The notes beneath the pieces were generated by a model. That model was not told the DNA's origin and did not search any database. It saw only the letters and a list, made by a program, of their open reading frames with translations. From contig VGSG01000002.1 of NCBI GenBank assembly GCA_016875095.1, positions 62,001 to 126,000 on the forward strand: a DNA stretch of 64,000 bases, read 5' to 3'. The DNA is from Deltaproteobacteria bacterium (GTDB taxonomy: Bacteria; Desulfobacterota; Desulfomonilia; Desulfomonilales; Desulfomonilaceae). Both the position numbers and the translations under genes were made by a program. Below, piece by piece: positions 1,290 through 13,075 of the stretch (within the stretch, counting starts at the first letter, position 1; each line of letters opens with the position of its first letter).

Positions 1290-2125
1290 TGGTCGAGGAG
1301 GTGGCGATCATAGCCGGGACAGGTGATTTGCCCCTGAAAGTGGCGGGGGAAGTTCGCGAAAAGGGGCATCCTATCGTTGCAATTGCAATTCTCGGCATGA
1401 CCAATCCGGCTATAGAGAGAGTAGCCCAGCAAACCTTCTGGATGAAGCTGGGCCATTTGCAGAAAGCCATTAGCCTACTGAAGTCCCGGGGGGTCAAGCG
1501 CCTCGTCATGGCGGGCAAGATCGAAAAGAGCGTACTCATGCGCCCCTGGAAAATCGGCCTCGATAGGCGGGCCCTCAGAATGATCTGGTCCCTCAAGGAC
1601 TGGCGAGACGACACGGTGCTCAAAGGCATCGCAGCCGAATTCCAGATGGACGGAATCGTCGTCGATGAGATAACCGCGTGGGCCGCCAAGCTGATGGCCC
1701 CGCGCGGCGTTCTAACCCGACGGAAGCCCAACCAGCGCGAATGGAAAGACATCGAATTCGGCCGGGATATGGCCAGAGAGATGGGACGTCTGGATGTGGG
1801 GCAAACGGTGATCATCAGGAATAGAGCGGTGATCGCGGTCGAAGCCATAGAGGGCACGGACAGGGCCATCAGACGAGTGGCCGACCTTGACATTAGCGAC
1901 GCGGTGGTGGTCAAAATGGCCAAGCCGCATCAAGACATGAGGTTCGATGTGCCCGGCATCGGGCCTTCCACGATCGACAGTATGGTGGCGGCACGAGCCA
2001 GAGTGCTGGCCGTAGAGGCGGGGAAGACCATGATTGCCGACTATGAGGGAGCTGTGGAACAGGCCGATCGGGCAAAGATCTCCATCGTGGGCATCCTCGC
2101 CGAAGGACCACCGGAAGATGGATAG
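1289..2125 (+). CDS. lpxI: UDP-2,3-diacylglucosamine pyrophosphatase LpxI
   Basis: LpxI hydrolyses UDP-2,3-diacylglucosamine to lipid X and UMP. It is the enzyme that replaces LpxH in alphaproteobacteria, many deltaproteobacteria and others. The 278-residue protein starts with VAIIAGTGDLPL, the glycine-rich N-terminal motif of the DUF1009/LpxI family, and contains the conserved C-terminal stretch KMAKPHQDMRFDVPGIG. Its place between lpxA and msbA supports the assignment. It overlaps lpxA by one base and the proposed msbA start by eight bases. No lpxB is seen next to it, although lpxI and lpxB are often adjacent, so lpxB must be elsewhere on the chromosome. Confidence 0.93.
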   Translation: MVEEVAIIAGTGDLPLKVAGEVREKGHPIVAIAILGMTNPAIERVAQQTFWMKLGHLQKAISLLKSRGVKRLVMAGKIEKSVLMRPWKIGLDRRALRMIWSLKDWRDDTVLKGIAAEFQMDGIVVDEITAWAAKLMAPRGVLTRRKPNQREWKDIEFGRDMAREMGRLDVGQTVIIRNRAVIAVEAIEGTDRAIRRVADLDISDAVVVKMAKPHQDMRFDVPGIGPSTIDSMVAARARVLAVEAGKTMIADYEGAVEQADRAKISIVGILAEGPPEDG

Positions 2126-3956
2126 CCAGCCCACTGCGAATGATGCGCATCACGCACAGGGAATCCTTCCGCGCCGGGAGCGAAGCTTCTTCGTTTATCG
2201 ACGATTGCTTCAGTATCTGAAGCCGTACCGCGGAAGACTCCTGCTCGCGGGTGTTTGCATGGTCGGAGTGGCCGGCCTCACCGCAACACTCGCCTACTTG
2301 GTGAAACCCGCTCTGGACGAGATCTTTTTCGAAAAGAACCTCCGAATGCTGTATATCATCCCGGGGGTGGTGGCTCTGGTTTACCTCCTTAAGGGCGTGT
2401 TCGATTTCGCGCAATATTACCTCATGGCGTACGTGGGCCAGAGCGTCATTCGCGATCTCCGGGACGAGCTATACGAACACATGGAACAGATGTCGCTCGC
2501 ATTCTTTGTGCGGCGATCCACCGGCGAACTCATATCCAGAATGAACAATGACGTGGCCCTGGTCCAGGGCGCCATGACCAGCGCTATTACCGGTGTCGTG
2601 CGGGATGTGGTCACCGTGGCGGCGCTGGTCTTCGTTGTCTTCTACCGGGATTTCTGGCTCGCGCTCATCGCAATGAGTGTCTTCCCTCTCGCGATTTACC
2701 CTTTGCTTCAGTTTGGGAAGAGGCTCAAGCGCTATTCCCGAAGGATGCTCGTTTCTCTGGAAGACATCACCGCGCGGCTGACCGAGACCATCGCCGGGAT
2801 TCGTATCGTGAAAGCGTTCGCGATGGAAGATTACGAGCGAGAACGATTCCGGCAAGTGAACCGGAAGCTCTTCAACTCGTTCATGCGCCGATTCAAGGTG
2901 CGTGCCCTCTCAAACCCCGTGATGGAAACACTCGGAGGCTTAGGGGTCTGCGCCATCCTCTTCTACGGCGGCTATCAGGTCATTACCGGGCAATCCACCC
3001 AGGGGACGTTCTTCTCTTTCATGGCTGCCCTTTTGCTCCTGTACGAGCCCATCAAACGCATCAATGAGGTGAATATAACGATTCAGGAGGGCGTGAGCGC
3101 GGGAGAACGAATTTTCGAGCTGCTCGACACTCCGCCTGACGTTGAGGATAGACCCGGCGCGGGGGCGCTCCCGCCTGTTGAGCGGGAAATAGCGTACAAC
3201 GGCGTATGCTTCACGTATGACGAACAACCGGTGCTTCGGGACATAAACTTTACCGCGACCGTGGGTCAGGCCGTGGCGATTGTTGGTGAGAGCGGCTCAG
3301 GCAAGAGCACGCTCTTGGATCTTCTGCCGCGTTTTTACGATGTCACTGCCGGAAGCATCCGCATAGACGGCGCGGATGTGCGGGACGTGACCCAGCGATC
3401 GCTGCGGGAAAAGATCGGGATCGTCACGCAGCAGACCATCCTTTTTGATGACACGGTCCGTAACAATATCGCCTACGGCCGTCCGGATCTGCCTTTGGAA
3501 AAGATCGTCGCGGCGGCGCAGGCTGCTCATGCCCACGGATTCATCACGTCGCTCCCGAACGGGTACGATACGATGATCGGCGAGAACGGCATCAGGCTCT
3601 CAGGCGGGGAGCGTCAACGGGTCGCTATAGCCAGGGCGATCTTGAAGGACCCGCCTATTCTCATCCTGGATGAAGCCACTTCCAATTTGGACTCGGATTC
3701 GGAACAGGCGGTCCAGAAAGCCCTCGAAGCGCTCATGGAAGGCCGGACCACGCTGGTGGTCGCTCACAGGCTCTCCACCATCAGAAATGTGGACCGGATC
3801 TATGTCCTGGCCGGGGGACGCATTGTGGAACAGGGGAGTCATGATGACCTTCTGGCCACTGACGGCGAATTCGCCAGGTTGTATAACCTGCAGTTCGCAG
3901 CCGACGCAACCACCGAAGCCCAGACCTCAACAGCTCTTTTTCGCGCTCCGATCTGA
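2118..3956 (+). CDS. msbA: Lipid A export permease/ATP-binding protein MsbA
   Basis: This is a half-size ABC exporter of 612 residues that should flip lipid A-core across the inner membrane. The N-terminal half holds six membrane segments (about residues 30-310). The ATPase half shows Walker A GESGSGKST near residue 390, the signature LSGGERQRVAIARAIL near 494, Walker B ILILDEATSNLD and the H-loop VVAHRLST. The ATG at 2118 is preferred: an AAGGA sequence lies about ten bases upstream, and the alternative start at 2034 lies deep inside lpxI and would add 28 residues unlike the family. The genomic position between lpxI and lpxK separates it from other type I exporters. Confidence 0.93.
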   Translation: MDSQPTANDAHHAQGILPRRERSFFVYRRLLQYLKPYRGRLLLAGVCMVGVAGLTATLAYLVKPALDEIFFEKNLRMLYIIPGVVALVYLLKGVFDFAQYYLMAYVGQSVIRDLRDELYEHMEQMSLAFFVRRSTGELISRMNNDVALVQGAMTSAITGVVRDVVTVAALVFVVFYRDFWLALIAMSVFPLAIYPLLQFGKRLKRYSRRMLVSLEDITARLTETIAGIRIVKAFAMEDYERERFRQVNRKLFNSFMRRFKVRALSNPVMETLGGLGVCAILFYGGYQVITGQSTQGTFFSFMAALLLLYEPIKRINEVNITIQEGVSAGERIFELLDTPPDVEDRPGAGALPPVEREIAYNGVCFTYDEQPVLRDINFTATVGQAVAIVGESGSGKSTLLDLLPRFYDVTAGSIRIDGADVRDVTQRSLREKIGIVTQQTILFDDTVRNNIAYGRPDLPLEKIVAAAQAAHAHGFITSLPNGYDTMIGENGIRLSGGERQRVAIARAILKDPPILILDEATSNLDSDSEQAVQKALEALMEGRTTLVVAHRLSTIRNVDRIYVLAGGRIVEQGSHDDLLATDGEFARLYNLQFAADATTEAQTSTALFRAPI

Positions 3957-7597: not shown

Positions 7598-8983
7598 CTA
7601 TTCTGCGATCTTGGCGATGCACTTACCCTGAGGATCGCGGTCAAAGGATAGGTCGCCCTTGACAAACTTCGACTTCAGACCCGCTTTCTGCAAAATGTTC
7701 TGAGCCATCTCGGCCCGGATACCGGTGGCACAGTGAATCACGATCTCTTTGTCTTTCGGCAGGTCGGCCAGTCGCCCTTCGAGTTGGTCGAGCGGGATGT
7801 GGATTGCCCCGGCAATCGCGCACTCCTTGTTTTCGTCGGCGTTGCGCACATCAAGAACCGCCTTATCCTTGCTTTCACCACTGGCCAGCTTCTGAAACAC
7901 CGGCAAATCAACTTCGCCGGGCGCAAGCTTTTTCACATACGCGATTTTGGTCTGAGCGGGCCCGGTTGCAACCTGTTTCCCAGCCTTTTGCCAGGCGTCG
8001 AAACCGCCATCCAGGATGCTCACCTGGTTATAACCCCAGCCTGAGATCATCTTGTACGCATCCAGAGCGGCAGCCACGTTGCCCTCTTTATTGTACAGGA
8101 TGGTCACCGCTCGCTTGAATTTCGGGAACTGGTCCTTGAGCGCATTTACGTCGCCCCCGGGAGCGGCGACCGCCTTGGGAATATGCCCTTTTTCTATTTC
8201 GTCTTTGGAGCGAAAATCCACGAGGATGTACGAACCGTCCGTCTTGTTCAGATTTTCAATGTTCGCGACGTTGGAAACCACCGGCTGGCCGGCCTTCTTC
8301 CACGCGGGCAAACCTGCGTGAAACACCTTAACGTTCTTGTAGCCGAGCGCTTCCGCCTTCCTGGCGGACATGGGGCTGAGCACTCAGGTGTAACCTGCGC
8401 AGTAATAGATCTGAAGGATGTCCTTATCCTTGGGCAGGACCTTTTCCATCAAATTGTCAAACGCAAAGTGCGGAAATGACTTGGCCGTGGGGATGTAGCC
8501 CTGGTCGTAGTTGTCCGTAGGGCGACTGTCCAGGAGCACGTACTTGCCTTTCTCAGGTCCCTGAGCAACCAACTTGGCAAGCTCCTCGGCTTCCATCAGC
8601 TTTTCTTTCGCTACCTGGAGGCCCTTCTTGACCTCAACCTCTTTCGCGTAGCTCTTGCCGTCTCTCTTGACGTAGGTGATCCGGACCGCCTCATTCTTGT
8701 CGATCTTTTTGTACTCGGGCGCGTTCTTGAGCACGGTGGCGTCGTCGAAGAAGATCACCTCGTTCTCTTTCCCGATTTGTAGCTGCAGCGACTTGCTCTT
8801 GGCAGCCACATCCACGAAGCGGCCGGCGAGAAGGTTCGGGGTCTTCTCGTACGCGGGGTGACACTTAAGGCAGCTCGGATCCGATTTGGACGGGAACTGT
8901 TCCTCCGCTGCGAGCGCCGCGCCCGGCCACCATACGGCCAGGGCAACAGTTACGACGATTAGGGTGATTGTGCGCTTACTCAT
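7598..8983 (-). CDS. Exported heme-motif triple-rhodanese protein, probable selenoprotein (UGA at 8384-8386 read as Sec)
   Basis: Read through one in-frame TGA, the gene encodes 461 residues. Residues 1-25 are a signal peptide ending in ALA. Residues 38-42 form a CLKCH motif, the pattern for covalent heme c. A small beta-rich region spans about 60-125, then three rhodanese-like domains at about 132-235, 243-335 and 355-445. In domain 1 the active loop reads C195-A-G-Y-T-U200, with the TGA exactly where related exported rhodaneses appear to carry a second cysteine. Domain 2 has lost its cysteine (Asn at that place), and domain 3 keeps one (HCATGIR). A stop at the TGA would leave 199 residues cut in the middle of a domain, while downstream codons continue the rhodanese helix perfectly. 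A SECIS-like hairpin follows the TGA. A periplasmic role in sulfur or selenium transfer or redox relay is likely. Confidence 0.85.
8345..8386 (-). promoter_or_regulatory. Putative bacterial SECIS hairpin including the UGA codon
   Basis: Immediately after the in-frame UGA the minus-strand RNA can fold as GAGUGCU (8385-8379) with AGCGCUC (8351-8345), a ten-base one-sided bulge (8378-8369), then UCCGCC with GGCGGA and the five-base loop AGGAA (8362-8358). The apical loop starts 21 bases after the UGA and holds GG, within the placement known for bacterial SECIS elements such as fdhF, where SelB binds. The pairing uses codons that are also needed for protein sequence, so it is suggestive and not proof. 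Confidence 0.7.
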
Positions 8984-9105
8984 TCATTCCTCCTCATCTG
9001 TGCTGGTGCTCTCGGGGAGCATTCGGTGGTCATCCGGCGAATCTTCGGGCAGAAAACGCCGGTTGCGTCCTTACTGGGATGATCTCCCCCGTATGCTTGG
9101 TTACA

Positions 9106-9269: not shown

Positions 9270-9509
9270 TCAACGAGGGAGTTTCTTGAAGAACACCGCT
9301 TTTTGAGAGGACAGCTCACCTTCTGAGATCTGCTTCCGAACGGTCTTCAAGTCTACCTTTCGTGCGCCCCCTGCTGTGATCGGCATTTCCCGAGTTTCGA
9401 GTCCGGAACGAACCGCGCCTGCGCCAAGCACGACACACAGGGCGAGCAGTCCCACGAAAATGAGATCTTCGGTTCGACCGCGCAGGCGCGCGACGAGCCT
9501 GCCCATCAT
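9270..9509 (-). CDS. Small single-pass membrane protein downstream of the polyferredoxin fusion
   Basis: The 79-residue product starts MMGRLVARLRGR, has one membrane segment (about residues 15-32, LIFVGLLALCVVLGAGAV), and a charged C-terminal part. I do not recognise a family. Its ATG overlaps the stop of the large fusion gene in an ATGA junction, so the two are almost certainly translated together and the small protein may be a subunit or anchor of that membrane redox protein. A longer reading from 9629 would lie entirely within the upstream gene and is not supported. Confidence 0.7.
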   Translation of the reverse strand: MMGRLVARLRGRTEDLIFVGLLALCVVLGAGAVRSGLETREMPITAGGARKVDLKTVRKQISEGELSSQKAVFFKKLPR

Positions 9510-12500
9510 CTTACGCCCCCTGTATCCGCCGGCGCCTTGAACAGGCATCGATTGCATCGGATGCAGTCCACGTCTCCGGGAAAGCTGACCCCAAGGTCGC
9601 AGTTGGCTGGCTGGGGAGTGGGCGCCCATCTCCTGAGGAGCCTCACTTTGTTAAAGAGCGCCAGGAACGCGCCCGCCGGGCAAAGGTAACGGCACCAGAA
9701 GCGGAAATAGAAGAGAGATACGGCCAGCGCTACCAGGCACAGCGCGAGCGCCCATGTGTCCATATCCCCTCTAAAGAAGTGCTGGAGGGGACTGAACGTG
9801 AACCAGACGGTATCTCCCGTCAGAAGGAAGATCGAAAGGATCACGGCCAACAATACGAATTTGAGATACCGGCCCTTGCCTTCCGCATCTACCGAGACCC
9901 TTCGCCTCATCGTCCTGAAGCTCAAAAACTCTTGTAATGCCCCGAAAGGACAGAGGAACCCGCAGAATACCTGACCCCACATCGCCGACACAAGCAGAAC
10001 TCCGGTGAAAAGGACCACTCGCCAGGTCGTATCCGGCGCGGGAAATTGTCCTGTGAGCAGATTCGCGGCGTCCAGCTCGGTAAAGGGCGCATTCAGGAAC
10101 AGTCCGAGAATTCCCAGTGAGGCGGCGAGACACAAGAGTCGCAGCCTTTCGGTTCGTAGATGGTGCGCGCCGATGAACACAGCGAAGAGCGCTATCACGC
10201 TCCAAAGCTTGAGGTCCTTCAAAGCCTTGCTCCAAATGGCGGCAGGCTCAGGCCGTCCAGCCGGACGAGATATCCCGAGAACGGGAGCGGCTATCTCTTC
10301 TCCGGTCTTTTCCAGAATCCGGGCAATGGCTGCGCACGTGATGGTTGCGCCGCTGAGCGCGTCAACTCTCTCTTGAAGAGGCTCCAGTATGGAGCGTCCT
10401 CTCAGGCCGCGCAGCCACTCGTCCAAACCCTGAATGTACGACGGTGTTTCTCGGGATTCTACGAGCCTCACGCCCTTGACGGCCCCCTGATCCGAGACCG
10501 AGACCAGCAGGTTCAACGGGCCGCCGTACCCGCGCGCTTCACTCGCGATGGGAATGGTGCTTAAGCTGACCGTGAATCGCTCGCTTTCCGTGGGAGCGCC
10601 CATGTAATGGGGGAATGGCGCTTGCTTGAACTCAAACTTGTTTGAACCGGATATTTCCGCGAGTGTTTCGTTGTCAAAGACTACCGTGTATGCGGTCTTG
10701 GGCGGTCCAACCACAAGGTGCAAAGTGAAAGCCCCTGCTACAAGAAAGCAGAGAGTCCACGAGGTTCTCACAAAAGGGAAAGAAAAAGGCCCGGCGGGCC
10801 GATATCGATCCAAAATTGCGTCGATCCGACGGAAAGCGACTTCCGCGAGCATGAGGCCGACAGGGAGGAGCACGAGCGCCATCAGAACCAGGCAGGCGTC
10901 GCCGATCCCCAGGAGCGGGACAAGCAGGGCGCCTGTGAGCGCTCCGCCGACGGCCGCGCCGTAATGGTCCGCGGCATCCACAAGGCCTGATGTTTGCCCC
11001 GGATTCCCGGTCAGCCAAAGGTGCGAGGAGACTGCCAGAGGGAATACCCCGCCGGTCAACATACCTGAGATGAGCGCCAGGCCGAAGAGCACGGCCTCGA
11101 TAGTTTGTGGCGACTGATTCCCCAGGAGACGAAAGACCGGTGGAGTTGCAATGCAGACCGCGCCCATAAGAAAGAGCATCCCCGCGATGGCGATAGAGAC
11201 GCTGCCGAAACGGGAAAGCGCGGAGCGCGCGGCCGCGGCGCCCGCTGTCAGTCCGGCCATGAACAGGGCAACGAAGATCCCCACCCGCTCGAAGACGTGA
11301 CCGAAGAGGCTCTGATAAGCGTACATAAGAACGATTTGCAGGCCCATGGCCGCGGATCCCACTGCAAACATGGCCAGCAAAATTTGAAAGCGGCTCTCTT
11401 TCCCGTCGCGCGCGCCCCATCGCGCGCGAAAGATCAGCCTTGCGGAAAAAAAGAAGAACAAGGGGATCAGAAAAAAGGCGAGGCCGCCTCGGCGGATCGT
11501 ATTGAGGACCTCCATACGCCCCGTTCCGGAGAACCGTCCCCACAGTATGAGAGCGAGAGACGCGGAAATGGGGCTAAAGTCCGTGTTGATCAGGACCGGC
11601 GAATTCTCAAGCTCTTTTCGCACGAACGCGGTTCGTTCCGGCGGAAGGAGCGTTTCGAAGCCTTTCGGATCGAACGGCCGGTCCTTGAACCCTCCATATC
11701 GGGCGGCCAGCTCAGCGGGATCGAGGCTCAGGGTATCGTGCCTCTTGGAAGCCAGAAAATGGGTTTCATCACCGGGAGTGGCGCCCACGTCCGGAAAGAC
11801 GCGTTTCAGGGTGTGATAAACCGATCCCGCGTACGAAGCCACCTCCGATCCCCAGAAATTTTCCGCGGAGGTCACCCGAGTGGCGAATACGCCCCCCGGA
11901 GCAAGACCGGCTGCTACGGCGCGAAAGAACTCCAGTGTGTAATAACGATTCCAGAACGCGGAAACCGGGTCCGGAGCCGTGACAATGACCATGTCGTAAT
12001 CGGCGCCGGCCATCTGATTCACATAGAACCTGCCGTCCGCGAAGATCATACGAACGCGGGGATCGCTGATTGCCTCGTTCTCTTCCTGCGGCATGTATTT
12101 CCGCGCCAGTTTGAAAGCCCACTGGTCCGGCTCGACCACATCCACGCGGCTCAGGGGGTAGCGAAGCAAAGATCGGACCATGCTCCCCGCGGCGCCTCCG
12201 ATGAGCAGGACCTTGCGCGTTTCAGGCTTTTGGGTCATCGCCAGCGCGGCCACGCGATCCGTGCTGTGCGGGTCCGGGAATGACGAGATGATCTTGCCGT
12301 TGCCGAAGAGCGACACTTGGTTTCCCAGGCGCGCCACCTCCGCAAGCTGGTACGGCGTAGGAGCGTGCTCCAGGAGTTCAAGTCCGGGATGAAGCGCCTG
12401 CCATCGCACGCGAGCGGTCCATTCCACGAAACTCCGCCCCAAGGGCGACAACACGAAAAGCGCGCAGGCGGCCATAGCCACGGCAGACCAGAGGGCGTCC

Positions 12501-13075
12501 GCTTGTTTGACCCGTCGGAGGTAAAGCGCAACCGCGAGAGCCATGAAGAACGCGATGAGAGCGGCGATCCGCAGAGGCGAAAGCAATCGAACCAGCGCAA
12601 ATGTAAAAGCCGCTCCTCCGATCAGGCTCCCCAGCGATTCAAAGACATACAGTTGCGCGACGCGGCGATCGTCCGCAGCCGGGGTCGCCTTACAACCCAG
12701 CGGAAAGAGAAAGCCGGTAAGGAACGCGGTGATGAATGTCCCGATCGGAACCGCCAACAATATGCCGTGCAAAGGCGCCAGTTCGGCGGGCGCGATCCCA
12801 AAGAGCCGTGGGCTTGCGCGGATAAGGAGTATTTCCAAGAGAAGAGAAAAACCGAGCGCGACATACGAGTGAAGGAACAGTCTTTGAGGCTCTCCGGACC
12901 ATTTCTTCGTAACATGCGCGCCCGCGGACGCGCCTAAGCCGATCCCGGCAAGCCATGCTGCGAAAAAGATCCCGATGCACAATTCCGTTCCGTGGAAGAC
13001 GACAAGGATCTCACGGAGCAGCAGGATCTGCCCAGACAAGGCCGCGAAACCGAAAAGGAAGAACATCCATGACAT
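9506..13075 (-). CDS. Fusion: membrane spermidine-synthase-like + FMN-binding + NosR/NapH-like 4Fe-4S polyferredoxin
   Basis: The protein has 1189 residues in a single open frame. Residues 1-210 are several membrane segments. Residues about 280-480 are a Rossmann methyltransferase fold of the spermidine-synthase type (VLLIGGAAGSM near 288; DPRVRMIFADGRFY and VTAPDP near 330-360). A second membrane block covers about 520-770. An FMN-binding domain follows (about 800-925) with DALSGATITC near 905, where RnfG/NqrC/NosR-type domains attach FMN through the threonine. The last 250 residues are membrane helices with two cysteine clusters, CGFLCPFGAL near 1038 and CRYLCPAGAF near 1128, as in NosR/NapH, and a final CIRCNRC that lacks a fourth cysteine. 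An AAGGAG site precedes the start. The whole suggests an inner-membrane electron-transfer protein; the role of the methyltransferase-like part is unknown. Confidence 0.88.
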   Translation of the reverse strand: MSWMFFLFGFAALSGQILLLREILVVFHGTELCIGIFFAAWLAGIGLGASAGAHVTKKWSGEPQRLFLHSYVALGFSLLLEILLIRASPRLFGIAPAELAPLHGILLAVPIGTFITAFLTGFLFPLGCKATPAADDRRVAQLYVFESLGSLIGGAAFTFALVRLLSPLRIAALIAFFMALAVALYLRRVKQADALWSAVAMAACALFVLSPLGRSFVEWTARVRWQALHPGLELLEHAPTPYQLAEVARLGNQVSLFGNGKIISSFPDPHSTDRVAALAMTQKPETRKVLLIGGAAGSMVRSLLRYPLSRVDVVEPDQWAFKLARKYMPQEENEAISDPRVRMIFADGRFYVNQMAGADYDMVIVTAPDPVSAFWNRYYTLEFFRAVAAGLAPGGVFATRVTSAENFWGSEVASYAGSVYHTLKRVFPDVGATPGDETHFLASKRHDTLSLDPAELAARYGGFKDRPFDPKGFETLLPPERTAFVRKELENSPVLINTDFSPISASLALILWGRFSGTGRMEVLNTIRRGGLAFFLIPLFFFFSARLIFRARWGARDGKESRFQILLAMFAVGSAAMGLQIVLMYAYQSLFGHVFERVGIFVALFMAGLTAGAAAARSALSRFGSVSIAIAGMLFLMGAVCIATPPVFRLLGNQSPQTIEAVLFGLALISGMLTGGVFPLAVSSHLWLTGNPGQTSGLVDAADHYGAAVGGALTGALLVPLLGIGDACLVLMALVLLPVGLMLAEVAFRRIDAILDRYRPAGPFSFPFVRTSWTLCFLVAGAFTLHLVVGPPKTAYTVVFDNETLAEISGSNKFEFKQAPFPHYMGAPTESERFTVSLSTIPIASEARGYGGPLNLLVSVSDQGAVKGVRLVESRETPSYIQGLDEWLRGLRGRSILEPLQERVDALSGATITCAAIARILEKTGEEIAAPVLGISRPAGRPEPAAIWSKALKDLKLWSVIALFAVFIGAHHLRTERLRLLCLAASLGILGLFLNAPFTELDAANLLTGQFPAPDTTWRVVLFTGVLLVSAMWGQVFCGFLCPFGALQEFLSFRTMRRRVSVDAEGKGRYLKFVLLAVILSIFLLTGDTVWFTFSPLQHFFRGDMDTWALALCLVALAVSLFYFRFWCRYLCPAGAFLALFNKVRLLRRWAPTPQPANCDLGVSFPGDVDCIRCNRCLFKAPADTGGVR

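Follow-up and report, generated by a model that had tools for sequence, protein, structure and literature searches.

A predicted exported rhodanese with selenocysteine in its active loop, encoded by an apparently stop-broken gene of a Desulfomonilaceae bacterium

Results

Gene and protein layout

A gene that looks broken by a stop codon almost certainly encodes an exported sulfur-handling protein with selenocysteine (Sec) in its active loop. It lies in the window, the 64,000-nucleotide stretch of contig VGSG01000002.1 analysed here. The explanation that fits best overall, and in which we have high confidence, is an extracytoplasmic selenoprotein with a C195-U200 redox rhodanese domain that would reduce persulfides. 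As originally predicted, the frame is open over 461 codons on either side of a single interruption, a TGA. The gene runs on the minus strand (8983..7598), which the original prediction left unstated, and the TGA is codon 200 at 8386..8384. Without recoding it would be read as one ORF of 199 and another of 261 amino acids (Table 1).

Table 1. Features of the selenoprotein locus, in window positions
Feature	Position	Strand	Evidence
Selenoprotein gene, complete; 461 codons plus stop, TGA200 = Sec	7598..8983	minus	Translation; homologues
Ribosome-binding site AGGAGG, 5 nt 5' of ATG	8989..8994	minus	Sequence
Signal-peptide-like N-terminus, residues 1-26	8906..8983	minus	Sequence; hydrophobic in all close homologues
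CLKCH, residues 38-42, candidate c-type heme site	8858..8872	minus	C38, C41 and H42 invariant in 11 close homologues
Small all-beta domain, residues 50-121	8621..8836	minus	AlphaFold2 strands 51-118
Rhodanese domain 1, residues 127-237, loop C195-AGYT-U200	8273..8605	minus	Pfam PF00581; structure model; alignment
TGA codon 200, Sec	8384..8386	minus	Translation; Sec/Cys alternation in homologues
Bacterial SECIS hairpin TCCGCC-AGGAA-GGCGGA, loop 8362-8358	8352..8368	minus	Fold; comparison of homologues
Rhodanese domain 2, residues 238-342, without catalytic Cys	7958..8272	minus	Alignment; model
Rhodanese domain 3, residues 357-445, canonical loop C418-ATGI-R423	7649..7915	minus	C418 in 74/74 homologues
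Small one-helix membrane-type protein, upstream	9270..9629	minus	Same protein between same neighbours in L033, L034
Upstream fusion: spermidine-synthase-like + FMN_bind + NapH/NosR-like Fer4_5	9506..13075	minus	Pfam; same position in L033, L034

The PF00581 profile reaches 148.7 bits (gathering score 22.2), and Pfam recognises three rhodanese stretches. Together with the hydrophobic N-terminus, from which an extracytoplasmic location is predicted with great confidence, this agrees with the triple rhodanese with signal peptide proposed earlier; the loop of the middle domain, however, has no Cys. The beta domain (residues 50-121) has no Pfam match. The AlphaFold2 model has a mean pLDDT of 86 and a pTM of 0.68, so confidence is good for the single domains and lower for how they are placed relative to one another. 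Comparison of the domain 1 loop with that of domain 3 indicates that Sec replaces the loop Arg.

Predicted selenocysteine insertion at codon 200

Near-full-length close homologues were found in 11 of 42 genomes of the class, with identities of 50-61% within the same family. All 11 same-family homologues continue beyond codon 200, which is TGA in nine and TGT in two. Wider searches of the phylum, of another class and of named genomes yielded 74 full-length sequences. The loop is decayed in two of them, and loop counts use the other 72. Residue 195 is Cys in all 72. At residue 200 they divide evenly, 36 with Sec (TGA) and 36 with Cys, counts that describe the sampled genomes and not natural frequencies. 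The alternation between Cys and Sec expected of homologues is thus present. On a quick tree it needs seven switches, and branches with good support make five of these unavoidable. Members of the family are found in many Thermodesulfobacteriota genera and in Nitrospirota. They amount to a natural experiment, in which one enzyme has been switched between Sec and Cys at a single site at least five times and the Cys forms have a degraded SECIS.

The hairpin begins 15 nt 3' of the TGA and the loop 21 nt 3' of it. For the single sequence its folding energy is modest against shuffles (MFE –20.3 kcal/mol, z = –2.1), and Rfam, at a relaxed threshold, finds no SECIS family in the locus; the hairpin was therefore judged by comparison, and the contrast between Sec and Cys homologues is decisive. 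Of the 36 Sec genes, 33 form all five core pairs and the remaining ones four of five; of the 36 Cys genes, one has the full set. Loop base 8361 is G in 36/36 Sec genes versus 4/36 Cys genes, and the base after it is G or U in every Sec gene. The Fisher value for the contrast (~1e–15) is overstated, because the sequences are related. The inner hairpin (8368-8352) keeps one register throughout the Sec genes and so aligns without gaps. Resampling of synonymous codons gave ~12% complete hairpins (maximum 31%) versus 89% observed in an earlier 35-gene set. Two-sided (compensatory) changes occur at three stem pairs. The stem covariation score of 0.217 (0.130 when shuffled) was reached in 0 of 500 shuffles and exceeds that of every slid register. 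Neither of the two Cys genes in the protein's own family (L028, L030) retains the hairpin.

A stem in two parts had been proposed. Its inner half with the AGGAA loop stands, conserved in Sec forms and lost in Cys forms. The outer stem is weaker than the inner hairpin. It shows some covariation, but here the Cys homologues too exceed the synonymous-codon null. It is not specific to Sec genes, and we do not claim it as part of the SECIS.

The source genome also has the machinery for Sec insertion, with all four of selA, selB, selC and selD found. SelB is full-length (391.7 bits), tRNA-Sec carries a TCA (UCA) anticodon, SelA (594 bits) is encoded on the contig that contains the window, and SelD scores 352 bits. 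SelB is above the curated cut-off in 18 of 18 genomes of the source's family.

Two other readings of the TGA were weighed. A pseudogene or a sequencing error, with the TGA as a true nonsense mutation or a misread TGC or TGT, would agree with a frame that is open apart from one TGA and with a draft assembly fragmented into 202 contigs. However, the same TGA recurs at the homologous codon in half of the intact homologues (36/72), across many families and separate assemblies, the hairpin of the Sec genes is missing from the Cys genes, and the genome has full selABCD. The recurring TGA and the hairpin refute this reading, to which we give a negligible chance. Two adjacent genes, a 199-aa protein ending at the TGA and a 261-aa protein starting from GTG at 8383, are suggested by that GTG directly 3' of the TGA. 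Yet such a split would cut the rhodanese active loop and leave the second ORF without half a domain, the Cys homologues are unbroken, and the codons past the TGA are constrained as a hairpin and not as a start site. We reject this reading as well and consider it extremely improbable. Sec insertion at codon 200 is thus predicted with near certainty from selABCD, the Cys/Sec alternation and a SECIS kept in Sec forms and lost in Cys forms, and sequence evidence could hardly make the recoding of TGA200 more secure.

Two minor observations concern the machinery. The SelD gene (L099, G000:C7:103502-104416) has an in-frame TGA of its own, so SelD is probably a selenoprotein too. A second, partial SelB N-terminus lies at a contig edge (L002, G000:C73:47-940) and is possibly a paralogue or contamination; two genomes of the same family (G011, G012) have two SelB matches each.

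Relation to known Sec rhodaneses

The protein had been put forward as a new type of selenoprotein. This part of the original prediction is not supported, because a 2026 review already catalogues rhodanese-like selenoprotein forms 1-5, including those with UxxS (form 1) and UxxxxU (TsoB) (PMC13188914). Form 1 is defined there by PF00581 and UxxS, with WP_010941598.1 as an example (PMC13188914). The window motif is CxxxxUxxS, and U200-V-L-S203 follows the UxxS rule, by which the protein is probably a form 1 rhodanese-like selenoprotein. It shares with WP_010941598.1 the rhodanese domain and UxxS, and is presumed to match it in architecture and Sec position. A Desulfuromonadia-type relative (L131) has the same layout as the window protein, with FCAGVTUALSPSS and CSVCH. 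The source genome itself encodes a TsoB-like protein whose loop, YUAGLTUVRS, has Sec at the same site as U200; with the UxxS rule, this places the window protein among the known Sec rhodaneses. That gene (L018, G000:C40:9449-9796, 1324-3135) is a rhodanese/DsbD fusion with two in-frame TGAs and a hairpin after the second.

Assignment to more specific families was rejected. TsoB (NF045694) matches the window protein in having Sec at C+5 of the loop and shows weak similarity over the first rhodanese, at 73 bits against a cut-off of 805. However, TsoB carries Sec at either end of the loop and includes a DsbD-like membrane domain, whereas the first loop position of the window protein is Cys. Similarly, rhodanese_LYCAU (NF041203) is a rhodanese whose active loop contains Sec; the window protein scores 73 bits with this profile, below its cut-off of 115. 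In rhodanese_LYCAU, Sec lies two residues past the Cys (CxU), a motif absent from the window protein, where the distance is five. The double-Sec rhodaneses of the Olavius Delta-1 symbiont (L049) and of Desulfobacterales (L043) share the C-x4-U-x2-S loop, the place of the SECIS and the C-terminal rhodanese; they differ by having two Sec domains and one hairpin for each, with no CxxCH or beta domain seen, and are ~36% identical to the window protein. EanB and YnjE (PDB 6ktx, 3ipo) likewise have several rhodanese domains per chain and give weak whole-chain fold matches, but they are without Sec and their TM-scores are ~0.2, so single domains match and the assembly does not. Foldseek against PDB returned single-domain rhodanese matches only.

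The order signal peptide, CxxCH, beta domain, Sec rhodanese, Cys-less rhodanese and canonical rhodanese appears to be undescribed in the literature searched, where we also found no description of the family's distribution, no mention of GSU0937 and no paper that connects Desulfomonile with selenoproteins or Geobacter cytochromes with a Sec rhodanese domain. Standard gene calling would split the Sec form in two, so the distribution has probably been under-counted. We regard the family as widespread, barely studied and mostly mis-annotated, and not as a wholly new kind of protein.

The CxxCH motif

The heme motif proposed earlier holds in part. CxxCH is present in 59 of 74 full-length homologues, and its two Cys and His are invariant in the 11 close ones. 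It is missing from several Sec-bearing clades (L091-L093, L095, L097, L135, L136), so heme cannot be essential to domain 1. One clade (L040, L085, L089) shows CX4CH instead and others show nothing; heme, if bound, would thus be accessory. CX4CH spacing is also known for c-type heme. Judged as a c-type cytochrome, the protein has CxxCH (CLKCH) and is predicted from its sequence to be exported, and Pfam recognises no cytochrome domain in it. A lone CxxCH without a recognised cytochrome fold is a weak sign of heme, and we put covalent heme on this protein at even chances.

CxxCH might instead be a metal- or thiol-redox site exchanging electrons with C195-U200, a reading that we hold at slightly below even. 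It would account for the single motif, the absence of a Pfam cytochrome domain and the clades that keep Sec without CxxCH. Strict conservation of the His and both Cys in the close family, the CX4CH of one clade and the c-type cytochrome assembly genes of the source genome count against it and leave heme binding putative.

Proposed chemistry and gene neighbourhood

SelB acting on the hairpin just past UGA200 would place Sec at the sixth position of the domain 1 loop (C195-x4-U200), which is Arg in domain 3 and Cys in many homologues. A rhodanese loop with a catalytic Cys and Cys or Sec at C+5 argues for a redox pair in domain 1 rather than a lone catalytic Cys that only carries sulfur. C195 may accept sulfane sulfur as a persulfide. 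In the likeliest reaction, U200 would reduce this persulfide by attacking it, sulfide would leave, and a Cys-Sec (selenenylsulfide) bond would form. The bond would need re-reduction, with electrons arriving via CxxCH, if it bears heme, or from an outside partner. Domain 2 would be structural. Domain 3 is predicted to be a canonical sulfurtransferase site (C418 is kept in 74/74 full-length homologues) able to donate or accept sulfane sulfur. Persulfide or sulfane-sulfur chemistry is thus suggested with somewhat better than even confidence, and the most likely role would be extracytoplasmic transfer and reduction of persulfide or sulfane sulfur.

With Sec inserted all the same, domain 1 could be an exported thiol/selenol-disulfide oxidoreductase, or a peroxide- or selenite-linked reductase, and not act in sulfur transfer. 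C-x4-U/C is a redox pair, TsoB couples a UxxxxU rhodanese with a DsbD-like domain, and the majority of selenoproteins predicted in bacteria show homology to thiol oxidoreductases (PMC9312934). However, the sulfurtransferase Cys of domain 3 is canonical in every homologue, and distant relatives lie within thiosulfate and tetrathionate gene sets. We consider this alternative unlikely. For the preferred reading, persulfide reduction, the family offers a testable hypothesis of how periplasmic sulfane sulfur is reduced. A more specific version, a heme-linked exported Sec persulfide reductase in which a c-type heme, supplied with electrons from the quinone pool, reduces the Cys-Sec bond again, seems quite improbable; if true, it would be a selenoenzyme of sulfur respiration outside the cytoplasm and would give the rhodanese fold a new role in catalysis.

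A tie to sulfur respiration had also been proposed. No sulfur-respiration gene lies beside the window gene at its own locus, where the neighbours are the spermidine-synthase-like/FMN/Fe-S fusion, the small membrane protein and an SPFH-zinc-ribbon protein. The neighbours of close kin vary (ETF genes in L035 and L037). Near distant relatives, we found PhsA-like molybdenum reductases (L040, L042, L043), octaheme tetrathionate reductase genes (L043, L048), a TtrB-like Fe-S protein gene (L043) and thiosulfate reductase cytochrome b (L048). These neighbours support a sulfur role, and a part in sulfur respiration is tentatively suggested.

The upstream fusion is unusual, a 1189-aa spermidine-synthase-like membrane protein joined to FMN_bind and Fer4_5. 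Its Fer4_5 and FMN parts resemble the electron carriers NapH, NosR and RnfG, and our guess is that it might be an electron source or transfer partner of the window protein. The real start of the small membrane-type protein is probably near 9509.

Two variants were seen among the homologues. In family f30, a full-length paralogue (L096, G320:C11) has a decayed domain 1 loop, with a Sec copy elsewhere on the contig. The C-terminal ends of L023 and L032 carry, after the domain 3 active site, a 23-residue insertion resembling a tandem duplication of the RAEMAYNxLK segment.
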